From a virus: a stretch of DNA of 64,000 nt. Location of the stretch: positions 1 through 64,000 of IMG/VR virus record IMGVR_UViG_3300050821_005690, one strand, 5' to 3'. The position numbers and the translations under genes are program-made. Below, piece by piece: positions 6,044-25,815 of this stretch. Each line of letters opens with the position of its first letter. Position 1 is the first letter of the stretch. The notes beneath the pieces were generated by a model. The model searched no databases. It worked only from the letters and a program-made list of their open reading frames with translations, and was not told the origin of the DNA.

Positions 6044-6733
6044 TTGGCTACCAGCGGCACCTTCACTTTCAATCCGGCGCTAGGCACGCTGTCGCTGCTG
6101 GCGTTCTCGCGCTGCGGGATCAAGCGCACTGAGGTGCTCTCCGAGCACATGCAGAACGCCTTCCTCGAAACCAACCTGATGCAGTCAGGCTGGGCGGCGG
6201 ACGGGATCACGTTCTTTACGGTGCAGCTTAAGACCACGCTGCTCTCGCAAGGCCAGCAACAGGTAACGGTTCCGGCAGAAGCGATCGCGGTGCTCGATGT
6301 CTACATCAACAACGGAACGACAAACCGGCTTCTGTTCCCGTTCTCGCGCACTGATTTCGCGAGCTTGGCGGTGCCACAGCAACAGGCGCCGCCTACAAGT
6401 TTTTGGCTCAATCGCGGTCTGACCCAGGTCATCAATCTGTGGCCGGTGCCGGACAACGCCGCCGTCTACACCCTGAATTATTACATCTATACCCAGGTGC
6501 AGGACGCCATCTTTCGCCAGGGCGGCCAAGCGGCAGTCCCGGAGTATTGGCTTGACGCCTACGTGGCGGACCTCGCGCACCGGCTATCCCGCCACCATGC
6601 TCCGGCGCTTGAGGCAATACGGAAGGTCGACGCCAAGGAAGCGTACGATCGGGCCTGCAAACAGGTCGAGAACGCGCCTCTCTACATCACGCCCGGGCTG
6701 TCCGGGTACTACCGGCCGGAGGGCGGCTACTGA
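6044..6733 (+). CDS. Head-tail adaptor, P22 gp4-like
   Basis: A 229-residue protein with a TTG start supported by GAGGGG. Its order fits the gp4-like tail accessory factor family: L-S-L-L-A-F-S-R-C-G-I near the N-terminus, a conserved LNRGLTQVINLWPVPDNA segment (about 125-142) and a C-terminal helix with R-H-H-A-P-A-L-E. In P22 this protein forms a ring below the portal and closes the filled capsid. The gene overlaps the next by one base. The family call is by pattern and position. Confidence 0.75.
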   Translation: MATSGTFTFNPALGTLSLLAFSRCGIKRTEVLSEHMQNAFLETNLMQSGWAADGITFFTVQLKTTLLSQGQQQVTVPAEAIAVLDVYINNGTTNRLLFPFSRTDFASLAVPQQQAPPTSFWLNRGLTQVINLWPVPDNAAVYTLNYYIYTQVQDAIFRQGGQAAVPEYWLDAYVADLAHRLSRHHAPALEAIRKVDAKEAYDRACKQVENAPLYITPGLSGYYRPEGGY

Positions 6734-7738: not shown

Positions 7739-7754
7739 TTTTAGGAGGCGACCA

Positions 7755-8408
7755 ATGTTCTGCATCAAGACTGGCATGAAGAACGAGTCCGATGTGGCGA
7801 TGAAGTACGCCGCGCCTAGCGCGCTTGTCCTCACCGGCATCCAGATGGTCGAGGATCTGGAAAAGAGCGTCCCGAAGGACTGCGAAGCGATCATGTCTTT
7901 CGGCATGTGCGGCGGGTTGCGGCCGGCTGCCCCGATCGTCGGCCAGACGATTATCGCCTCTAGGCTGATCGGGCCGGACGGCGAGACTTATGAAGTCGAT
8001 CACGCCTGGAAACAGCGCCTCTTCGAGACCACGAGGTTCTTCGTCCAGCCGTACTATTCCTCCGGCAGGTACAACGAGGCGAACACCCCGGCACAGCGAG
8101 CGACGCTCTATGGCCGCACCGGCGCGTGGTGTGTGGATGATGAGAGTCTGTGGGTTGCGCGATTCGCCAAAGCGCGCAACATTCCCTTCGTGATCGCGCG
8201 CAACTGCTCGGACCAATGGGACCAGGACGTCTCGGTCACGTCCGCGATGCTGACCTCGAAGGGCGGCGTTGATTTGGTGGCGATTTTCAAGGGTGTTGTC
8301 ACGTCGCCAATCACGATGGGGCGGATCGCCCTCAGCTATGCGAAGTCACAGAGCGAACTGGAGAAGTTCGCGGAGAAAATAGCCCCGGGCTTTGGCTGGG
8401 AAAAATGA
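7755..8408 (+). CDS. Nucleoside phosphorylase-like protein (MTAN/HpnG superfamily)
   Basis: A 217-residue protein. ATG 7755 is preceded by AGGAGG. It shows the purine nucleoside phosphorylase / MTA-SAH nucleosidase fold signatures: a Gly-rich SFGMCGGL loop (residues 48-55), V-G-Q-T-I-I-A-S-R (62-70), an acid before Ser in DDES (128-131, matching the M-E-S of MTA/SAH nucleosidases and the hopanoid-associated phosphorylase HpnG), and a catalytic-type Asp in NCSDQW (D153), then GGVDLVAIFKG (170-180). These enzymes cleave the glycosidic bond of purine nucleosides. The key acidic residues are kept, so it may be active. Its place between tail and lysis genes is unusual for nucleotide metabolism. 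Confidence 0.7.
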   Translation: MFCIKTGMKNESDVAMKYAAPSALVLTGIQMVEDLEKSVPKDCEAIMSFGMCGGLRPAAPIVGQTIIASRLIGPDGETYEVDHAWKQRLFETTRFFVQPYYSSGRYNEANTPAQRATLYGRTGAWCVDDESLWVARFAKARNIPFVIARNCSDQWDQDVSVTSAMLTSKGGVDLVAIFKGVVTSPITMGRIALSYAKSQSELEKFAEKIAPGFGWEK

Positions 8409-8815
8409 AAATAGGCCGTACCCTGAAATGGCTTGCTGTCCTGCTGTTGGTCTGCGGCTTGGCCATCTGTCTCGCGCTCCTGATCAGGCCAGCGTGGGCG
8501 CACGACAAGCAGCACCCAAGTCTCACCGACTGGTTCAAGTCACTGAACAATTCGCAGGGTACGCCATGCTGCGACGGCAGTGATGCCACGCGCATTGAAG
8601 ATGTAGACTGGCAGACGGTATGCGAAGCTGGCACTGGCCAGTGTCACTATCAGGTTCGTTTAGAACAGGCGTGGTGGAACGTCCCGGACGAATCCGTCAT
8701 AAAGACCCCGAACCGGGTCGGCCCCGCTCTGGTGTGGCCGATTTTCTACGGCACCAAAGGCAAAGCCGACTTCAATGTTCTCATCCGTTGTTTCATACCA
8801 GGATCAGGGGCTTAA
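8405..8815 (+). CDS. Secreted conserved protein with CCDGSDA motif (136 aa)
   Basis: The N-terminus (MKIGRTLKWLAVLLLVCGL onward, residues 1-32) is a signal peptide or signal anchor ending near AWA. The mature part has the pattern CCDGSDA (55-61), V-P-D-E-S-V-I, A-L-V-W-P and a final IRCFIPG, which I know from secreted proteins of Rhizobiales and their phages. Four Cys suggest disulphides, so it acts outside the cytoplasm. It overlaps the preceding gene by four bases (ATGA). It may help lysis or modify the envelope; function unknown. Confidence 0.65.
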   Translation: MKIGRTLKWLAVLLLVCGLAICLALLIRPAWAHDKQHPSLTDWFKSLNNSQGTPCCDGSDATRIEDVDWQTVCEAGTGQCHYQVRLEQAWWNVPDESVIKTPNRVGPALVWPIFYGTKGKADFNVLIRCFIPGSGA

Positions 8816-8912: not shown

Positions 8913-9755
8913 ATGGGCGAGCTTCTCCCCCTGTCGGTTCTCAAGACCCTCTGGTCCCATGGGGATCAGCATGTGCCAGGGTTGATCGAGGGCATTGCGG
9001 CCTCAGCGCCTGCGGTGTTCGAAAAGTATGGCGTTACGACCACCTTGGAGGTTGCCCATATCATGGCGCAATTCTCCGAGGAATGTGGCGCCGGGTTGGA
9101 GATGGTCGAGAACTTGAACTATTCCGCCGAAGGATTGCGGCGAACCTTCCCGACCCATTTCACCGAGTCCATGGCCGAGCACTATGCCCACAACCCGCGC
9201 ATGATTGCCGACGTGGCCTATGGCGGGCGCATGGGCAACGCCCCGCCGCCCTCTGACGACGGCTGGAACTATCGCGGCAAGGGCCTGTCGCAATTGACCG
9301 GCAAGGCCAATTACACGCGCCTTGCGGTCGTTACCGGACTCGACGTGATCCACGACCCCGATATTCTTATTCGACCCGCCACGGCGCTCGAATGTGCCGT
9401 GGCTGATTTCGTCCGCATCTGCGGCTGCTTGCCGCTCGCCCGGCGCGACGACGTGCACGGGGTGACCCTCCATCTCAACGGGGGCTACAACGGCCTTGCG
9501 GAGCGCATACGCTGGCTTCGCGAATGGAAGGTGGCCCTGAAGCCGTTCTGGCAAACCGCACCAGCGGCCAAGCCACAGGCCTATACGCAGTCGTCAACGG
9601 GTACTCCCGTTCCCCTGAGTGGTGCGACCGATCCCCCGCCAGAAACGGCCGGCCAGGGGGTTTCCTGGGTCGGGCCGCCACCGCCGCCACCCAACCCGAG
9701 CCCGATCATGACGGCGCTGGCTAATCTCAAGGCCGAAGTCGAAAAGATCGTTTGA
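8913..9755 (+). CDS. GH19-family endolysin (chitinase-like lysozyme)
   Basis: A 280-residue protein with the glycoside hydrolase family 19 pattern. AQFSEECGAG (residues 52-61) supplies the general acid Glu region; ENLNYSAEGLRRTFP follows (66-80), then the hallmark NYRGKGLSQLTGKANY (119-134) and LNGGYNGLAERIRWL (188-202). The last 60 residues are Pro-rich (VGPPPPPPNPSP) and may be a flexible linker or cell-wall segment. There is no signal peptide, so export would need the holin. The enzyme cleaves the glycan chain of peptidoglycan during lysis. Confidence 0.88.
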   Translation: MGELLPLSVLKTLWSHGDQHVPGLIEGIAASAPAVFEKYGVTTTLEVAHIMAQFSEECGAGLEMVENLNYSAEGLRRTFPTHFTESMAEHYAHNPRMIADVAYGGRMGNAPPPSDDGWNYRGKGLSQLTGKANYTRLAVVTGLDVIHDPDILIRPATALECAVADFVRICGCLPLARRDDVHGVTLHLNGGYNGLAERIRWLREWKVALKPFWQTAPAAKPQAYTQSSTGTPVPLSGATDPPPETAGQGVSWVGPPPPPPNPSPIMTALANLKAEVEKIV

Positions 9756-9768
9756 AAGGGAACCGTTT

Positions 9769-10341
9769 ATGACGATCAAAGGAGTGGTGCTGCTTTCCTA
9801 CGGGATGGGCGGAGCGGCGATCGAGACATGGTCGACCGGCCTTCGCCTGCTGACGCAGCGGTGCAAGGCGGCCGGCCTTGAGACCTTCGCCTCGCCGTAC
9901 AACTGGAGTCAGGTCAACGAGCTTGACGCGATCATCGCGCGGGTCCCAGCGGGCATCCCGATCGCGGTTGGCGGCTCAAGCCTGGGTGACGACAATGCGC
10001 CGGTCGTTGCGTCCCGCACCAAGCGGATCATCCGCTATCTGTTCGGGTTCCAGGACTCGATGTATGGCGTCAACGTCAAGGTGCCCGACAACGTCCAGTT
10101 CGCGGACAACATCTACAATCCATCCTGGATCCAGACCCTCGGCCTTGGTTATCGCCAGTGGAAGCGCACCACGCCCCGCTCGGACGACACCAAGACGGGA
10201 CGGCTTCGCAATATCCCGATCTATGCGCCACACCCGGACGACTGGGGGGTCGCGCAGGATATCGTGTTCTCGCGCATTCATGCGCTGATTGCGACGGCGC
10301 CGCCGCCGGTTGCGCCGATCACGGCAAGCTCGGGAGCGTAA
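9769..10341 (+). CDS. Alpha/beta-hydrolase-like lysis-module protein
   Basis: A 190-residue protein in the lysis module. It contains GGSSLGDD (residues 68-75), which resembles the G-x-S-x-G nucleophile elbow of alpha/beta hydrolases, preceded by an I-P-I-A-V strand, and a late H-P-D-D-W (about 162-166) that could hold the catalytic His/Asp region. Esterases in phage lysis cassettes attack envelope lipids or esterified sugars. The match is motif-level only, and the lid and full triad cannot be confirmed by eye. Confidence 0.5.
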   Translation: MTIKGVVLLSYGMGGAAIETWSTGLRLLTQRCKAAGLETFASPYNWSQVNELDAIIARVPAGIPIAVGGSSLGDDNAPVVASRTKRIIRYLFGFQDSMYGVNVKVPDNVQFADNIYNPSWIQTLGLGYRQWKRTTPRSDDTKTGRLRNIPIYAPHPDDWGVAQDIVFSRIHALIATAPPPVAPITASSGA

Positions 10342-15651: not shown

Positions 15652-15861
15652 TCAAATGCTGCTAGGCCCATGAGAGTGATCCGTCGGTGACGGCGGATTG
15701 CCGGCATAGAGATCGGTGGCGCTAAGATCGGTGTAGGGGAAGTGGCTCCCTGGTGCGAGGTGATGGCCGCTGCCGGTTACAGATTGCGTCGCCCAAATGA
15801 AGAATTGGTGGCTGCCTTTCTTAATCGTCGGCGTATTTATTTGCTGGCTGTGTGCCGACAT
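15652..15861 (-). CDS. Possible small hypothetical protein (69 aa)
   Basis: GGAAAGAA precedes the ATG, and the frame starts inside the end of the radical SAM gene. The product (SAHSQQINTPTIKKGSHQFF onward) is Ser/Thr/His-rich and without hydrophobic core; it could be real but composition alone does not decide it. Confidence 0.35.
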   Translation of the reverse strand: MSAHSQQINTPTIKKGSHQFFIWATQSVTGSGHHLAPGSHFPYTDLSATDLYAGNPPSPTDHSHGPSSI

Positions 15862-16684
15862 TGTGTTTCTTTCCGTGAATTAGCGCCGGGCGCGCCCAGC
15901 GTCTTTGAAACGCACGCCAGTTAGATCCCGGCGCATGCTTCTCTTGGCTCTTAGTGTCCGGCCGCCACAGCATAGCGAACGGCGTGAACCCGATCGACAT
16001 CAAGTCGGTAAGCCGCTTTGTAGCGGCGTCGAACGTGTCCTTGGGATAACCGATCAGACAGTACGATCGCAGACGATGGGATCGAGCGGTGAAGCCTGCT
16101 GCCAGGAGCTTGCTGGCGGCAACAGCCAGAGTCTCAAACTCGTCCTGGGGATCGTAGGCAAAGAACATATTCGGCCGGGGCGTCAGGCTCGCTAGCAGAT
16201 CCACTTGGTAGTCCTGCAGCGATAGAGCTTCCAGGCCGCCGGTGAACTCGACCCTGCGCTTTTGCCGCCGTAACATTTGGAAAACCGCCTCGACGTGCGG
16301 GCGCGGGCAGGCGAGCAAGTTATCGTCGAGGATGTTCCAGGCGTCATGGATTGGCAGCAAGTTGACGGTCGGCCACATCTTGGGGACCTTGCAGAACCAG
16401 CATCGGCGCGGACAGCCCCGCGAGGTGATCGTGTAGCCGGGCTTGATGTAGCGGCCGGGGATAAATTCGAGGCTCGTGTCATTAAAGGCCACGCCGCCGA
16501 TCTTCACGGGTGCCACCGACTTCCATTGTTCGGCAAGTCCCTCGGCCCGCGCCTTGTCATAGGTGAACGTGACCGAGACGTGCACCTCGTCGGCTTCATC
16601 GAAAAATCCAGGTGGTCCGAAGCGGACAAGATCGTCGTCCGGTGTGGCCTTTGTCTTTCGCGGGAAGACGCGGATCAGTCTCAT
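15821..16684 (-). CDS. Radical SAM enzyme
   Basis: A 287-residue protein with the iron-sulphur cluster motif CxxxCxxC at C91, C95 and C98 (CPRRCWFC), preceded by a Gly-Tyr-Thr-I-T-S-R-G strand. It continues with DDNLLACPRPHVEAVF, the substrate-side motif VEFTGGLEA and RSYCLIGYPKDTF, all in the order of phage-encoded radical SAM proteins. Such enzymes use S-adenosylmethionine to start radical chemistry on RNA, DNA bases or peptides. The substrate is unknown. The ATG overlaps the preceding stop (ATGA), placing it in an operon with a small gene and, further upstream, the SNF2 helicase. Confidence 0.85.
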   Translation of the reverse strand: MRLIRVFPRKTKATPDDDLVRFGPPGFFDEADEVHVSVTFTYDKARAEGLAEQWKSVAPVKIGGVAFNDTSLEFIPGRYIKPGYTITSRGCPRRCWFCKVPKMWPTVNLLPIHDAWNILDDNLLACPRPHVEAVFQMLRRQKRRVEFTGGLEALSLQDYQVDLLASLTPRPNMFFAYDPQDEFETLAVAASKLLAAGFTARSHRLRSYCLIGYPKDTFDAATKRLTDLMSIGFTPFAMLWRPDTKSQEKHAPGSNWRAFQRRWARPALIHGKKHNVGTQPANKYADD

Positions 16685-17914: not shown

Positions 17915-18357
17915 AGCGAGGGCTCCCGATCCTTCGGGCGCTGAACGCGAGCGGCCTTCTTCGCAAGCCACTCGCGCTGCCGCTCGATGATTTCAACGAG
18001 GCTCAAAAACTCCTGCCGGTGCGCACCGATCAGTTTCTCGATAGCGACAAGCTCGCTCCTAAGACGGTCGCCACGATCATTGTGTCGCCGAAAATAATAT
18101 GTTCCGCGCTCCCACTCGATCTCGCGCGCGAGAGCAAGGCGGGGATCGTCGTTCCAGTCACGCCACCGCGTCGCGGCATCGGAGCACGTCATGCAGGTCA
18201 GCATGGCTGTCCTTTGTCGGCCAAGGTCCTTCAGGCGCCGGTCGTACGTTTCCCGTGTAATCACGCGGTTCGCCTCTGTGAGACCGCATTCGGTGATGTC
18301 GGCCGAGTCCCGCCATGGCAGCCTCGGCCGCAGGATGTGGTCGACCGGGTCCTTCAT
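17911..18357 (-). CDS. Conserved hypothetical protein with CxxC (148 aa)
   Basis: Starts KDPVDHILRPRLPWRDSADI and contains TECGLTEANRVITRETYDRR followed by LTCMTCSDAATRW. Cys at three sites may hold a metal. The C-terminal half is a long charged helix. It is translationally coupled to the SNF2 gene (ATGA at 18354-18357) and to the next gene. It resembles short proteins of Rhizobiales phages, but I cannot name the family. It may assist the helicase. Confidence 0.6.
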   Translation of the reverse strand: MKDPVDHILRPRLPWRDSADITECGLTEANRVITRETYDRRLKDLGRQRTAMLTCMTCSDAATRWRDWNDDPRLALAREIEWERGTYYFRRHNDRGDRLRSELVAIEKLIGAHRQEFLSLVEIIERQREWLAKKAARVQRPKDREPSL

Positions 18358-20447
18358 GCCTCCACCCCGAAGATCGTCTGGTAGAGGTGACTGTCGTACT
18401 GCCGCCGGTACTTGCGGATCATCTTCATGGCGGCGGCAGCCTGCCGGGGCCGCAAGCTGGCCTGGGCGGCAAGCTCGCCCCCGAAGATTGTGTCCAGCTT
18501 CGAGAAGCCCACCCCGTTCTCGTAGCGAGCGTGATCCTCGTCGTAGGCCGCTACGGTCCGCAGGGCGGCGTGGATCGCGGCAATCCGCTCGGGGGTGAGG
18601 GTAGCCGCCACCTCATCCAACCGCGCTCTGCGATCGTCCTTGGCCTGCTGCTCGGCCATCTGCTCGGGAGCCAGCGGGACTACCGAGACCTCGATCTCGG
18701 GCCGCTCCTTCTCGGTGCCCTCGGTCTTCTGGTTCAGGGCCCGATCGATCACCTCCTGCTTCTGGACGACCATCTTCGCCATCCTGGCGTCCAGGCTGTC
18801 GTCGAGCACGAGGTGCTGCACCAGGACACACTCGGTCTGGCCGATCCGGTGCGCACGGTCCTCGGCTTGGCTGATCCGCGCCGGGGTCCAGTCGAGTTCC
18901 GCGAAGACCACATGGGAGCTTGCCGTCAGGGTCAGCCCCTCGCCGGCCGCCCGGATGTTGCCGACGAAGAACCGGATGTTCGGGTTGGTCTGGAAGGCGT
19001 CCTTGATACCGTCCCGCTTCTCCTGGGGCGTCTTGCCGGTGATCGAGACCACACCCTGGTCCCGGACCGCATCGCAGATCGCGTCGACGACGTCCTGGTG
19101 CCAAGCGAAGCAGAGAATTTTTCCGGTTGTCTCCTTGAGGTGCTCGATCACGTAGGGCACCTTCGCGATGGCGGTCTCGTGGCGGGCCTTGGCCATCTCC
19201 GAGAAGGCAATCCCACTTACCTCGTTCAGCGCCTTGACCGCGATCTTGTAGGCTTCCTCGTCGCCCTCGGCCTCGGCCCGCTGCTTCGCGGCGTTTGCTT
19301 GGGCGATCGCGTTCTCGGTCTTCTCGTAGACGTCCTTCTCCCGCTTGATCGCCGCCGTAATGGTCGCGTCGTCCTCGTCGTAGGTCAGCGGAACCACCTG
19401 CCGCCGCTTCGCGGGCAACTCGGTCAGCACCTCGTTCTTGAGACGCCGCACCATCACCGTCTCCCGCAGCCGCGCGTTCAGTTCGTCGAGCCGCGAGTCG
19501 CCGCTGGTGTCATAACCGAAGCCGTTGTACTGGGCTGCGCAGTAGCGCCGGGTGAAGCTCGACCAGGAACCCCACCGCTTCGGATCGAGGTTGTGCAGCA
19601 AGGGGTAGAGTTCGGCGGGCCGGTTCAGGATCGGCGTGCCGGTCAGCATCAGGCGCTTCCGCGCCGTCACCCCCGCTACGGTCACCCGCTTCTTGGTCTC
19701 CTTGTCCAGCTTGGTGCCGCCGAGCAAAGTCAAGGTCCGCTGCGCCGTGCGGGTCTTCATGTTGTGGCACTCGTCGTAGACCGCCAAGTCCCAGTCGGTG
19801 CTGGTCAGTACGGCCGCGTACCGGGTCACGATGTCGTAGTTGATCACATACCAGCCGTCCGGCTTGCCGGTGAACACCAAGCCCGGCCGGATGATGTGGA
19901 CCGGCATGTCGGCCAAGGTCTGCCACTTGTTGATTTCGTTCCGCCAGTTCGCCAGCAAGCTCGCTGGCGCAACCACCAGGATTTTCTTCGGCGCCGGCAC
20001 CATCGCATTGGCCACCGCGATGGCCTGGATGGTCTTGCCGAGTCCCATTTCATCACCGATCAGGGTGCCCGCGCGCGGCATCGCGTAGGCCACGCCGGCC
20101 TTCTGGAAGGGCATCAGGGCGAGGCCCTCGGGGATGGGGATTTCGATCGCCGCGTCGGTCGCCCGGCTGGCAGCCGCAGCCTGCTCACGATCGACCGCGC
20201 TCATGGTCGACACCCAGTGGGTCACCTCCCATCTGCCCTCGCCGTCGAAGTTGTTCTTGCCACAACCGAAGCCCGCAGCCTTCAGGAGGGGTTTGCGAGA
20301 GTTCCAAACCTCCCACCATTTATCTTTGATTTTCTCGGTAATCGGGGCGGTGCATAACTGGCGCTCGCCGAACTTGGTCATGACAATTTTGGGCTTGGAG
20401 AAGGCCAGCCCGACCTCGGTCTCCAGGCGCTCGATGGTCTCTGTCAT
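18354..20447 (-). CDS. SNF2-family helicase-like ATPase
   Basis: A 697-residue protein with the SNF2/SMARCAL1-type order. Motif I GDEMGLGKT is at 131-139 (Walker A). Motif II DECH is at 225-228, replacing the usual DEAH. Motif III LTGTP is at 268-272. The second RecA domain ends with motif VI QAEDRAHRIGQ (527-537). A helical tail (about 590-697) follows. SNF2-type enzymes translocate on double-stranded DNA and can anneal or remodel it; phage versions are thought to support replication or restart. Its promoter at 20476-20504 is the best in the window. Operon continues to the small zinc-ribbon genes and radical SAM. Confidence 0.88.
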   Translation of the reverse strand: MTETIERLETEVGLAFSKPKIVMTKFGERQLCTAPITEKIKDKWWEVWNSRKPLLKAAGFGCGKNNFDGEGRWEVTHWVSTMSAVDREQAAAASRATDAAIEIPIPEGLALMPFQKAGVAYAMPRAGTLIGDEMGLGKTIQAIAVANAMVPAPKKILVVAPASLLANWRNEINKWQTLADMPVHIIRPGLVFTGKPDGWYVINYDIVTRYAAVLTSTDWDLAVYDECHNMKTRTAQRTLTLLGGTKLDKETKKRVTVAGVTARKRLMLTGTPILNRPAELYPLLHNLDPKRWGSWSSFTRRYCAAQYNGFGYDTSGDSRLDELNARLRETVMVRRLKNEVLTELPAKRRQVVPLTYDEDDATITAAIKREKDVYEKTENAIAQANAAKQRAEAEGDEEAYKIAVKALNEVSGIAFSEMAKARHETAIAKVPYVIEHLKETTGKILCFAWHQDVVDAICDAVRDQGVVSITGKTPQEKRDGIKDAFQTNPNIRFFVGNIRAAGEGLTLTASSHVVFAELDWTPARISQAEDRAHRIGQTECVLVQHLVLDDSLDARMAKMVVQKQEVIDRALNQKTEGTEKERPEIEVSVVPLAPEQMAEQQAKDDRRARLDEVAATLTPERIAAIHAALRTVAAYDEDHARYENGVGFSKLDTIFGGELAAQASLRPRQAAAAMKMIRKYRRQYDSHLYQTIFGVEA

Positions 20448-24041: not shown

Positions 24042-24761
24042 TTAGCCTCCTCGCACTCGTTCCATGAAAGCAGATTCGCAACCAGGGTGCAGCCAGCGCA
24101 GGAAACTCCCGACGAGAATCTCGCGCTCAGTGCCGTCGTGCGGCTTGTTGCATTGGTGGCAAGTGCGGACGGCTGGCGAAAGTGTGTCGATTGTGCTGAC
24201 TTCGGGAGGATAGATCGTAAATCTTTTGGCGTTGGCGACGTTCGCCATGATTTCGGTAATCGGCACTTTCCGTGAGATGGATCGGTTTGGTTGGTGATTG
24301 TCATTGCGCTCCCATCGTTCCTCGCCTTGCTTCCAAAACCAGATTCGTAAAGGTTGGAATGGAATCCACACACAGTCGAGACAAGTAACCTTTCTCCAGC
24401 TTTCAGCGGAAAGATCAGAAACGTCTGCGTGGCAGACAAATAAGACTGTCGCCTTGCTTGGTTCATCTAGATCAATCCATCCGCGCTTTTCCTTTCCAGG
24501 GACAGAGCACGACCATGTTTCAAGATTGATTTTTTCGGCAGGCCCTCCTTTTCGCAGGCCCCGGATGATCTTCTCGTCAATGCTGTGCTCCGGCTTGCCG
24601 TCTTTAGTGCGCCTCAAGGACACGTCGACATGAAGGCGCTGCATCGAATGATCGCCTGGGAATCTTTCGACTATCCACCCCCGAAGCCGGTAAAATGGAT
24701 CAAGGAACTTTCCCGCGATCTGCTTTTGCCACTCGTCGTCTCGCACAAACTCGCGTATCAT
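24042..24761 (-). CDS. Hypothetical protein coupled to the adenine methyltransferase (239 aa)
   Basis: Start at 24761 overlaps the methyltransferase stop (ATGA), so the two proteins are co-translated. Core segment ATVLFVCHADVSDLSAESW, then CLDCVWIPFQPLRIWFWKQG (about 132-151), a hydrophobic Trp-rich beta region, and a C-terminal CHQCNKPHDGTEREILVG with CxxC plus a later His/Cys (HPGCESAFMERV), a likely zinc site. I cannot place it in a family. The tight coupling suggests a partner to DNA modification. Confidence 0.55.
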   Translation of the reverse strand: MIREFVRDDEWQKQIAGKFLDPFYRLRGWIVERFPGDHSMQRLHVDVSLRRTKDGKPEHSIDEKIIRGLRKGGPAEKINLETWSCSVPGKEKRGWIDLDEPSKATVLFVCHADVSDLSAESWRKVTCLDCVWIPFQPLRIWFWKQGEERWERNDNHQPNRSISRKVPITEIMANVANAKRFTIYPPEVSTIDTLSPAVRTCHQCNKPHDGTEREILVGSFLRWLHPGCESAFMERVRGG

Positions 24762-25768
24762 TCGGCGGCCTTCGCTTGCGTCTCTGCCCCCCAAGCTGCC
24801 CACCCATCGCGGGAAGTGCCCCGACGAAATAGCTCTATCTTTCTGGCGTCAGGATACATGCGTTCAACAATTTGGTGGAAGACTTCCGGCTTTGCCGAGT
24901 GCTCACCGCGAGGAGCCTCAACCACACTGTCCGGTAGACTTTCCGGTGCGGGGGCTGGATGATCTCCGCGTCGACATATCAGCAAAATCTCGTGCCGCTG
25001 CCGCACATACTTGCCGAGCCCTATCGAGGGCTTCACCCAAACCATCTGCGTGCGGTAGGCAAAGCCCCACGCCTCTGAGGTCTTCAGCGCCATTTCGATC
25101 ATCGACGGTGTCGCCCACAAAAACAGCATCGCCTGATCGTGCGCGATTTCGCTTACCGGCAATGCGAGAATGTCGGCAAACTTCATTGTCGGGTAGTGAT
25201 TTTCAATCGAACGATCACTCTTGCCAAACTCGTCGTCCCACGGGGGGTCGGCGAGGATCAAAGAGAACTTGCCAAGGTTTTTGGCGTTCAACGCGACCTT
25301 CTCAACGCGCTCGTTAACACCTTGCTGCTGTACCGATACCCGCTCCGCCCGAGCAGCAATCTTCGCAGCCTCTTCGCCGCTGAGTCTTGGGGAATTTTCC
25401 CCAGAGCCGCCTTTGTTTTTATTAGCTTTTTTGGAGTCTCCTGGGGAATTTTCCCCAAGGTCCTGCGAAACCGTCTTGTGATCAGCACCAAGGGTTTTGC
25501 CTATCGCCCTGGTACTGGCCGCTGGCTGTAATTGTTTGATGCGTTTGGCAATGCGCTTGCGATCCTCGGCGATGGCGCGGAATCGCTCTAAGTTGATGCT
25601 GCTGAGAAACTCATTGATGTCCTTGAAGCCAGCACCGCACTTCTTCCAATCATTTCCAGCTATCAAACTCTCTAGCCGCTGAAAAGCGCGCTCCAGCGTG
25701 TAGCCGGCAACGTGCAAACCCTCTTGCAGCTCGCCATAGAGTTGGTCGGGGAAAATTTTTGCAGGCAT
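24758..25768 (-). CDS. MT-A70-family DNA adenine methyltransferase
   Basis: A 336-residue protein. GGGAGGACTT before ATG 25768 sets the start. The catalytic motif DPPW is at 174-177, preceded by a strand (FSLILA), with ENHYPTM (189-195) and a later W-V-K-P region, the MT-A70 order. The N-terminal half is separate: a helical part, TRAIGKTLGADHKTVSQDLG (86-105) which looks like a ParB-type helix-turn-helix, then two copies of GENSP. It would methylate adenine N6 in DNA, perhaps to protect phage DNA from host restriction, with the N-terminal part giving DNA targeting. Confidence 0.85.
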   Translation of the reverse strand: MPAKIFPDQLYGELQEGLHVAGYTLERAFQRLESLIAGNDWKKCGAGFKDINEFLSSINLERFRAIAEDRKRIAKRIKQLQPAASTRAIGKTLGADHKTVSQDLGENSPGDSKKANKNKGGSGENSPRLSGEEAAKIAARAERVSVQQQGVNERVEKVALNAKNLGKFSLILADPPWDDEFGKSDRSIENHYPTMKFADILALPVSEIAHDQAMLFLWATPSMIEMALKTSEAWGFAYRTQMVWVKPSIGLGKYVRQRHEILLICRRGDHPAPAPESLPDSVVEAPRGEHSAKPEVFHQIVERMYPDARKIELFRRGTSRDGWAAWGAETQAKAAE

Positions 25769-25815
25769 AAGTCCTCCCATTGAGTCGGGGTCGGGGAACA
25801 TTTTCCCTGCCAGGA

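Follow-up and report, generated by a model that had tools for sequence, protein, structure and literature searches.

Why should a soil phage carry, close to its head-tail and lysis genes, a gene whose product resembles nucleosidases and phosphorylases, and on what would such an enzyme act? The phage is represented by a 102,449-base virus contig (IMG/VR record IMGVR_UViG_3300050821_005690), the first 64,000 nucleotides of which form the window, the whole stretch of DNA analysed here. On the sequence and a predicted structure, the gene probably encodes an active, phage-specific nucleosidase of the MTAN/HpnG branch. It is most likely an accessory nucleosidase for a 5′-substituted adenosine, with SAH, MTA, 5′-deoxyadenosine or a hopanoid as candidate substrates.

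The gene and its neighbors

The frame is a real gene, with a strong Shine-Dalgarno sequence before its start, a stop codon that overlaps the ATG of the next gene (8405) as ATGA, and a match to PF01048. Its placement among tail and lysis genes, as given in the initial annotation, holds as well: a SU10-type adaptor, with a capsid gene also 5′ of the nucleosidase gene, and a GH19-type endolysin are its neighbors (Table 1). An identical copy of the nucleosidase (100%) is present on L002, another contig from this phage. The small secreted protein encoded next has a relative near the nucleosidase gene of another phage, L011, and other relatives in phages without the nucleosidase (L162 and L140). The GGSSLG-motif protein following the endolysin is possibly an esterase of the lysis cassette; a relative lies directly after a GH25 endolysin in L098.

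Two further frames of the record deserve mention. Beyond the window, at 86267-102448 of the record G000 (3267-19448 of L122), an open frame of at least 5394 amino acids runs off the record end; ParB-like, zeta-toxin-like and inorganic pyrophosphatase domains exceed the Pfam cut-off in it and there is a weak helicase match, giving it the appearance of a giant polyvalent phage protein. Within the window a 680-amino-acid open frame (18315-20357, + strand) is antisense to a helicase gene (18354-20447, − strand) and is probably a by-product of high GC content, not a gene.

Table 1. Features of the nucleosidase locus and SAM-related genes of the window (window coordinates)
Feature	Position	Strand	Basis
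SU10-type head-tail adaptor, conserved upstream landmark	6044-6733	+	Profile match
Shine-Dalgarno AGGAGG, 6 bases 5′ of ATG 7755	7743-7748	+	Sequence
HpnG/MTAN-like nucleosidase gene, 217 aa (ATG 7755, TGA 8408, 217 codons)	7755-8408	+	PF01048 above cut-off; HpnG 92.7 bits; AF2 pLDDT 95; MTAN fold matches
E11, pairs with E. coli MTAN E12	7785-7787	+	Alignment
Glycine-rich loop SFGMCGGL, residues 48-55	7896-7919	+	Alignment
D128-D129-E130-S131; E130 aligns with MTAN E174	8136-8147	+	Alignment
R149-N-C-S-D153; R149 and D153 align with MTAN R193 and D197	8199-8213	+	Alignment
Small secreted cysteine-containing protein, ATGA overlap with nucleosidase stop	8405-8815	+	Sequence
GH19-type endolysin, lysis cassette marker	8913-9755	+	PHROG_181, E 7.5e-50
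GGSSLG-motif protein directly after endolysin, no Pfam family	9769-10341	+	Sequence and Pfam
Radical-SAM domain protein	15821-16684	−	PHROG_9298
MT-A70-like DNA methyltransferase	24758-25801	−	PHROG_359

Family and predicted fold

Membership of the nucleosidase/phosphorylase superfamily, proposed at the outset, is confirmed by a Pfam match (PF01048, PNP_UDP_1) of 33.5 bits, above the gathering cut-off of 25.1 (E 3.8e-8), with which the fold search agrees. HpnG, named initially as the closest pattern, is the best-scoring curated family in NCBIfam (TIGR03468, 92.7 bits, E 2e-26), though its curated cut-off of 187.1 is not reached; five phage relatives give 102-128 bits with the same model (125 for L009), and so all six scored phage proteins lie below 187. 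The MTAN model NF004079 gives 16.2 bits against a cut-off of 169, and NCBIfam models for MTAN and futalosine hydrolase are near noise for the window protein. PHROGs has no match to the nucleosidase, neither the window protein nor three proteins related to it have a relative in INPHARED, and with PADLOC models there is only Cas12 noise (E 0.014-0.03). A single-protein sequence search of the PDB returns noise only and a family profile is needed, with which MTAN and aminodeoxyfutalosine nucleosidases are matched at E 3e-15 and PNPs only at 1e-5 or worse.

The AlphaFold (AF2) model, made with an alignment of 49 sequences, has a mean pLDDT of 95 and a pTM of 0.90. MTA/SAH or futalosine nucleosidases account for the 27 best matches in a fold search of the PDB, with E values from 4e-11 and TM scores of about 0.6-0.66; AMP nucleosidase and PNP rank lower, and MTAN/PNP fold matches at probability 1.00 place the model in the phosphorylase/nucleosidase fold. 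A fold match to another family would have spoken against the initial annotation, and the structure search returned the same superfamily. In BFVD the three significant fold matches are all giant-virus phosphorylases, with no phage protein among them. For the predicted structure, MTAN-like hydrolysis of 5′-substituted adenosines is a better fit to these matches than salvage by a purine phosphorylase.

Predicted active site

In a profile alignment with E. coli MTAN, E11, E130, R149 and D153 pair with the catalytic residues E12, E174, R193 and D197 of that enzyme (counted on the E. coli sequence). Each of the 12 distinct phage proteins has all four, and loss of the catalytic E and D in homologues, the other finding that would have counted against the initial annotation, was not encountered, both being retained in all of them. 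The glycine-rich loop (S48-F-G50-M-C-G53-G54-L55), E130-S131 and D153, all singled out at first sight, are present and lie within the conserved alignment: S48, G50, D128, E130, R149 and D153 are invariant across the 12 phage proteins and the aligned HpnG proteins, and G7, E11 and G53 are nearly so.

Residue 129 varies. HpnG has DMES where nine of the 12 phage proteins have DDE(S/T), VDDES in the window protein; in those nine the usual M-E pair has its Met exchanged for Asp. MTAN has Met at this position, as do 70 of 80 cellular homologues. The scan pattern for cellular proteins permitted Asp at this position, and none of the 76 cellular homologues parsed has Asp-129 or DDE. The change from Met to Asp, expected in the ribose site, may mean a different substrate.

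Distribution among phages

The initial annotation considered this fold rare in phage late modules. Rarity in phages stands, yet MTAN-type phage genes have already been reported. About 80 phages that share the capsid protein of the window phage (57-91% identity) were compared, and apart from the identical copy the flanking DNA of none has the nucleosidase. Nor is it anywhere in 20 full capsid-relative records, a set that includes no positive control, though the family profiles do find cellular relatives. Relatives with the same upstream gene hold other cargo in the slot and, together with the absence from capsid relatives, this indicates an accessory gene inserted sporadically in a variable late slot. 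Hosts of named phages with a related capsid are mostly Alphaproteobacteria (for example Caulobacter, Pelagibacter and Roseobacter), with some others. An alphaproteobacterial host would be consistent with this, though it is not proof of one.

Scans of IMG/VR, mostly with the window protein or alignments of its family, yielded the identical copy and eleven further distinct relatives with 21-45% identity to the window protein (L009, L010, L097, L099, L011, L118, L103/L111, L117, L012, L013 and L106). Their settings vary: a GH25 lysis cassette for L009 (on the same contig as L098), an M15 endolysin for L011, a GH108 endolysin for L118, terminase-portal genes for L097, the portal for L099, capsid and head genes for L012 and L010, a UvsW helicase region for L117 and, by inspection only, lysis or membrane-protein regions for L013 and L106. 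The lysis cassette setting is clear in at least four phages (that of the window, L098/L009, L011 and L118), each with a different endolysin. A general rule to that effect was dropped, as it does not apply to L010, L012, L097, L099 or L117. The differing settings imply that the gene moves between phages with unrelated structural genes. In close pairs the nucleosidase is under purifying selection, third-position change being 2-3 fold greater than second-position change and dN/dS about 0.28 for L011 and L118.

Cellular homologues and origin

Capture of the gene from a host, suggested initially as possible, lacks support as a recent event. In a tree of 92 proteins, eight phage proteins including that of the window form one clade (100/95) separate from most cellular HpnG, to which phage proteins have only 20-30% identity. 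Among the cellular homologues 71 of 80 adjoin hpnH or shc; neither gene is present at the phage loci, nor is HpnH in the 102-kb record, and so the gene-cluster signature of HpnG is missing. Third-position GC is 0.80 for the nucleosidase gene against 0.77-0.81 for the phage structural genes; this and the tree speak against recent host capture. When 385 alphaproteobacterial genomes were scanned with a profile of the DDE branch, their HpnG proteins scored about 1e-25 to 1e-36 and no match was strong (E at most 1e-40). An ancient origin from HpnG is possible: with an MTAN outgroup the phage branch joins one HpnG group (97/96), and AU tests reject neither cellular monophyly (p 0.43) nor a single phage clade (p 0.62). 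One soil alphaproteobacterium (L017, G034) has two HpnG-like genes, one of them without nearby hpnH or shc on a short contig.

What might the enzyme do?

The analysis directly supports the family assignment, the fold, the conservation of the catalytic residues, selection of the purifying kind and a sporadic location in the late region. The role that we tentatively place first, for a catalytically competent N-ribosyl hydrolase of the MTAN/HpnG branch, is clearance of SAM by-products, which include SAH, MTA and 5′-deoxyadenosine (PMC10986504). The enzyme would remove adenine from a small 5′-substituted adenosine: E11, R149 and E130 would position the ribose and the water that attacks it, while the departing adenine would be protonated by D153. 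That the reaction is hydrolysis and not phosphorolysis, that adenine leaves, that the substrate has a 5′ group and what the physiological role is are all matters that we infer. The gene is accessory cargo, and its slot among the late head, tail and lysis genes is a variable one. The enzyme would likely clear SAH from the phage methyltransferase, 5′-deoxyadenosine from the phage radical-SAM protein, or MTA; such by-products would otherwise inhibit those SAM enzymes, and their clearance would also return adenine.

Several considerations favor this role. Adenine removal from a 5′-substituted adenosine is the chemistry common to MTAN and HpnG. The phage itself encodes a radical-SAM protein and a methylase. 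Radical-SAM genes are present in four of seven large nucleosidase-carrying records and in one of 20 capsid relatives without the nucleosidase (Fisher p 0.009, with controls of one lineage), an association that we treat as suggestive, given that the radical-SAM proteins differ in type, one being QueE-like; their genes are distant from the nucleosidase gene. Finally, there is a precedent in Lake Baikal phage VP_139, with an MTAN, radical SAM, SAM synthetase and methyltransferases (PMC7678222). Against clearance, the MTAN model score of 16 bits is far under its cut-off, the best family, HpnG, acts on a lipid, the Asp at residue 129 may point to another substrate, and the late-region position does not obviously fit metabolic recycling. 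If clearance is the role, phages with SAM-dependent enzymes would bring their own clean-up enzyme.

A phage HpnG proper, converting adenosylhopane to ribosylhopane and so altering envelope hopanoids of the host during infection or before lysis, is unlikely. Among curated families HpnG scores far above any other (92.7 bits for the window protein, 125 for L009), it takes adenine off adenosylhopane (PMC12583986), the nearest cellular homologues mostly adjoin hpnH or shc, and several phages have the gene in a lysis cassette. However, scores under the cut-off, lack of hopanoid genes and DDE(S/T) in place of DMES all weigh against it, and one member is in a T4-like replication region, so that the link to lysis is not general.

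It is also improbable that the product is a salvage phosphorylase that would use phosphate to cleave inosine, guanosine or adenosine and so feed late DNA synthesis. Membership of PNP_UDP_1 allows for this and the sole significant viral fold matches are nucleoside phosphorylases, of giant viruses, but in both profile and fold searches MTAN is far closer than the families of PNP and uridine phosphorylase.

Counter-defence, by N-glycosidic cleavage of an adenosine-based immune signal such as a derivative of ADP-ribose or of a cyclic nucleotide, was proposed initially along with second-messenger depletion and late salvage, and has a slim chance of being the function. An accessory gene that turns up sporadically, in slots that vary and in phages that are unrelated, is what might be expected of it, and base-ribose cleavage would be suitable chemistry. 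Set against this are the lack of a meaningful PADLOC family match and of a known anti-defence neighbor, and a late-operon position that is atypical, anti-defence genes usually being early; furthermore, dinucleotide signals are not known to be accepted by small MTAN-like active sites. A related proposal, with a similarly slim chance, is that the DDE ribose site of the phage-only branch was selected for a new adenosine target at the end of infection, either an immune signal or an envelope hopanoid intermediate, and spread between unrelated phages as late cargo. If the enzyme did act on a signal or on a hopanoid, this would amount to host takeover of a new sort. Very improbable is a protein of retained fold that has no catalytic role and works in lysis or as part of the virion. 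The recurrence of the gene near head, tail or lysis genes could be cited for it; against it stand the purifying selection and the fact that the catalytic residues do not vary across the 12 divergent phage proteins.

Comparison with known systems

The Pandoravirus and Pithovirus nucleoside phosphorylases found in BFVD share the fold, but with 13% identity, and they belong to viruses of eukaryotes and not to late phage modules. A paper considered as a precedent for a phage-borne PNP (PMC8779076) was set aside, as what it reports is integration into deoD of the host. E. coli MTAN/Pfs (1jys) is alike in providing the best type of fold match and in having E12, E174, R193 and D197 at aligned positions; it is unlike in the 10-17% identity of the fold matches, in model scores far under cut-off, and in M173 of its ribose site, which is not conserved in the phage proteins. 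The likeness to HpnG (TIGR03468, NF005476), whose own chemistry is only putative in the literature (PMC12583986), extends to an alignment of nearly whole length, the glycine loop and the E/E/R/D set, in contrast to a score about half the cut-off, the DDE(S/T) motif, a separate phage branch and no hopanoid genes nearby. The phage MTANs, VP_139 (PMC7678222) and MTAN-like stretches in some INPHARED records, share superfamily and probable chemistry, yet are true MTANs, unlike the window protein, which has no match in INPHARED. To these known MTAN-type genes of phages the present gene adds a rare phage-specific variant, representing a nucleosidase branch that has intact predicted active sites and spans phages with unrelated structural genes.
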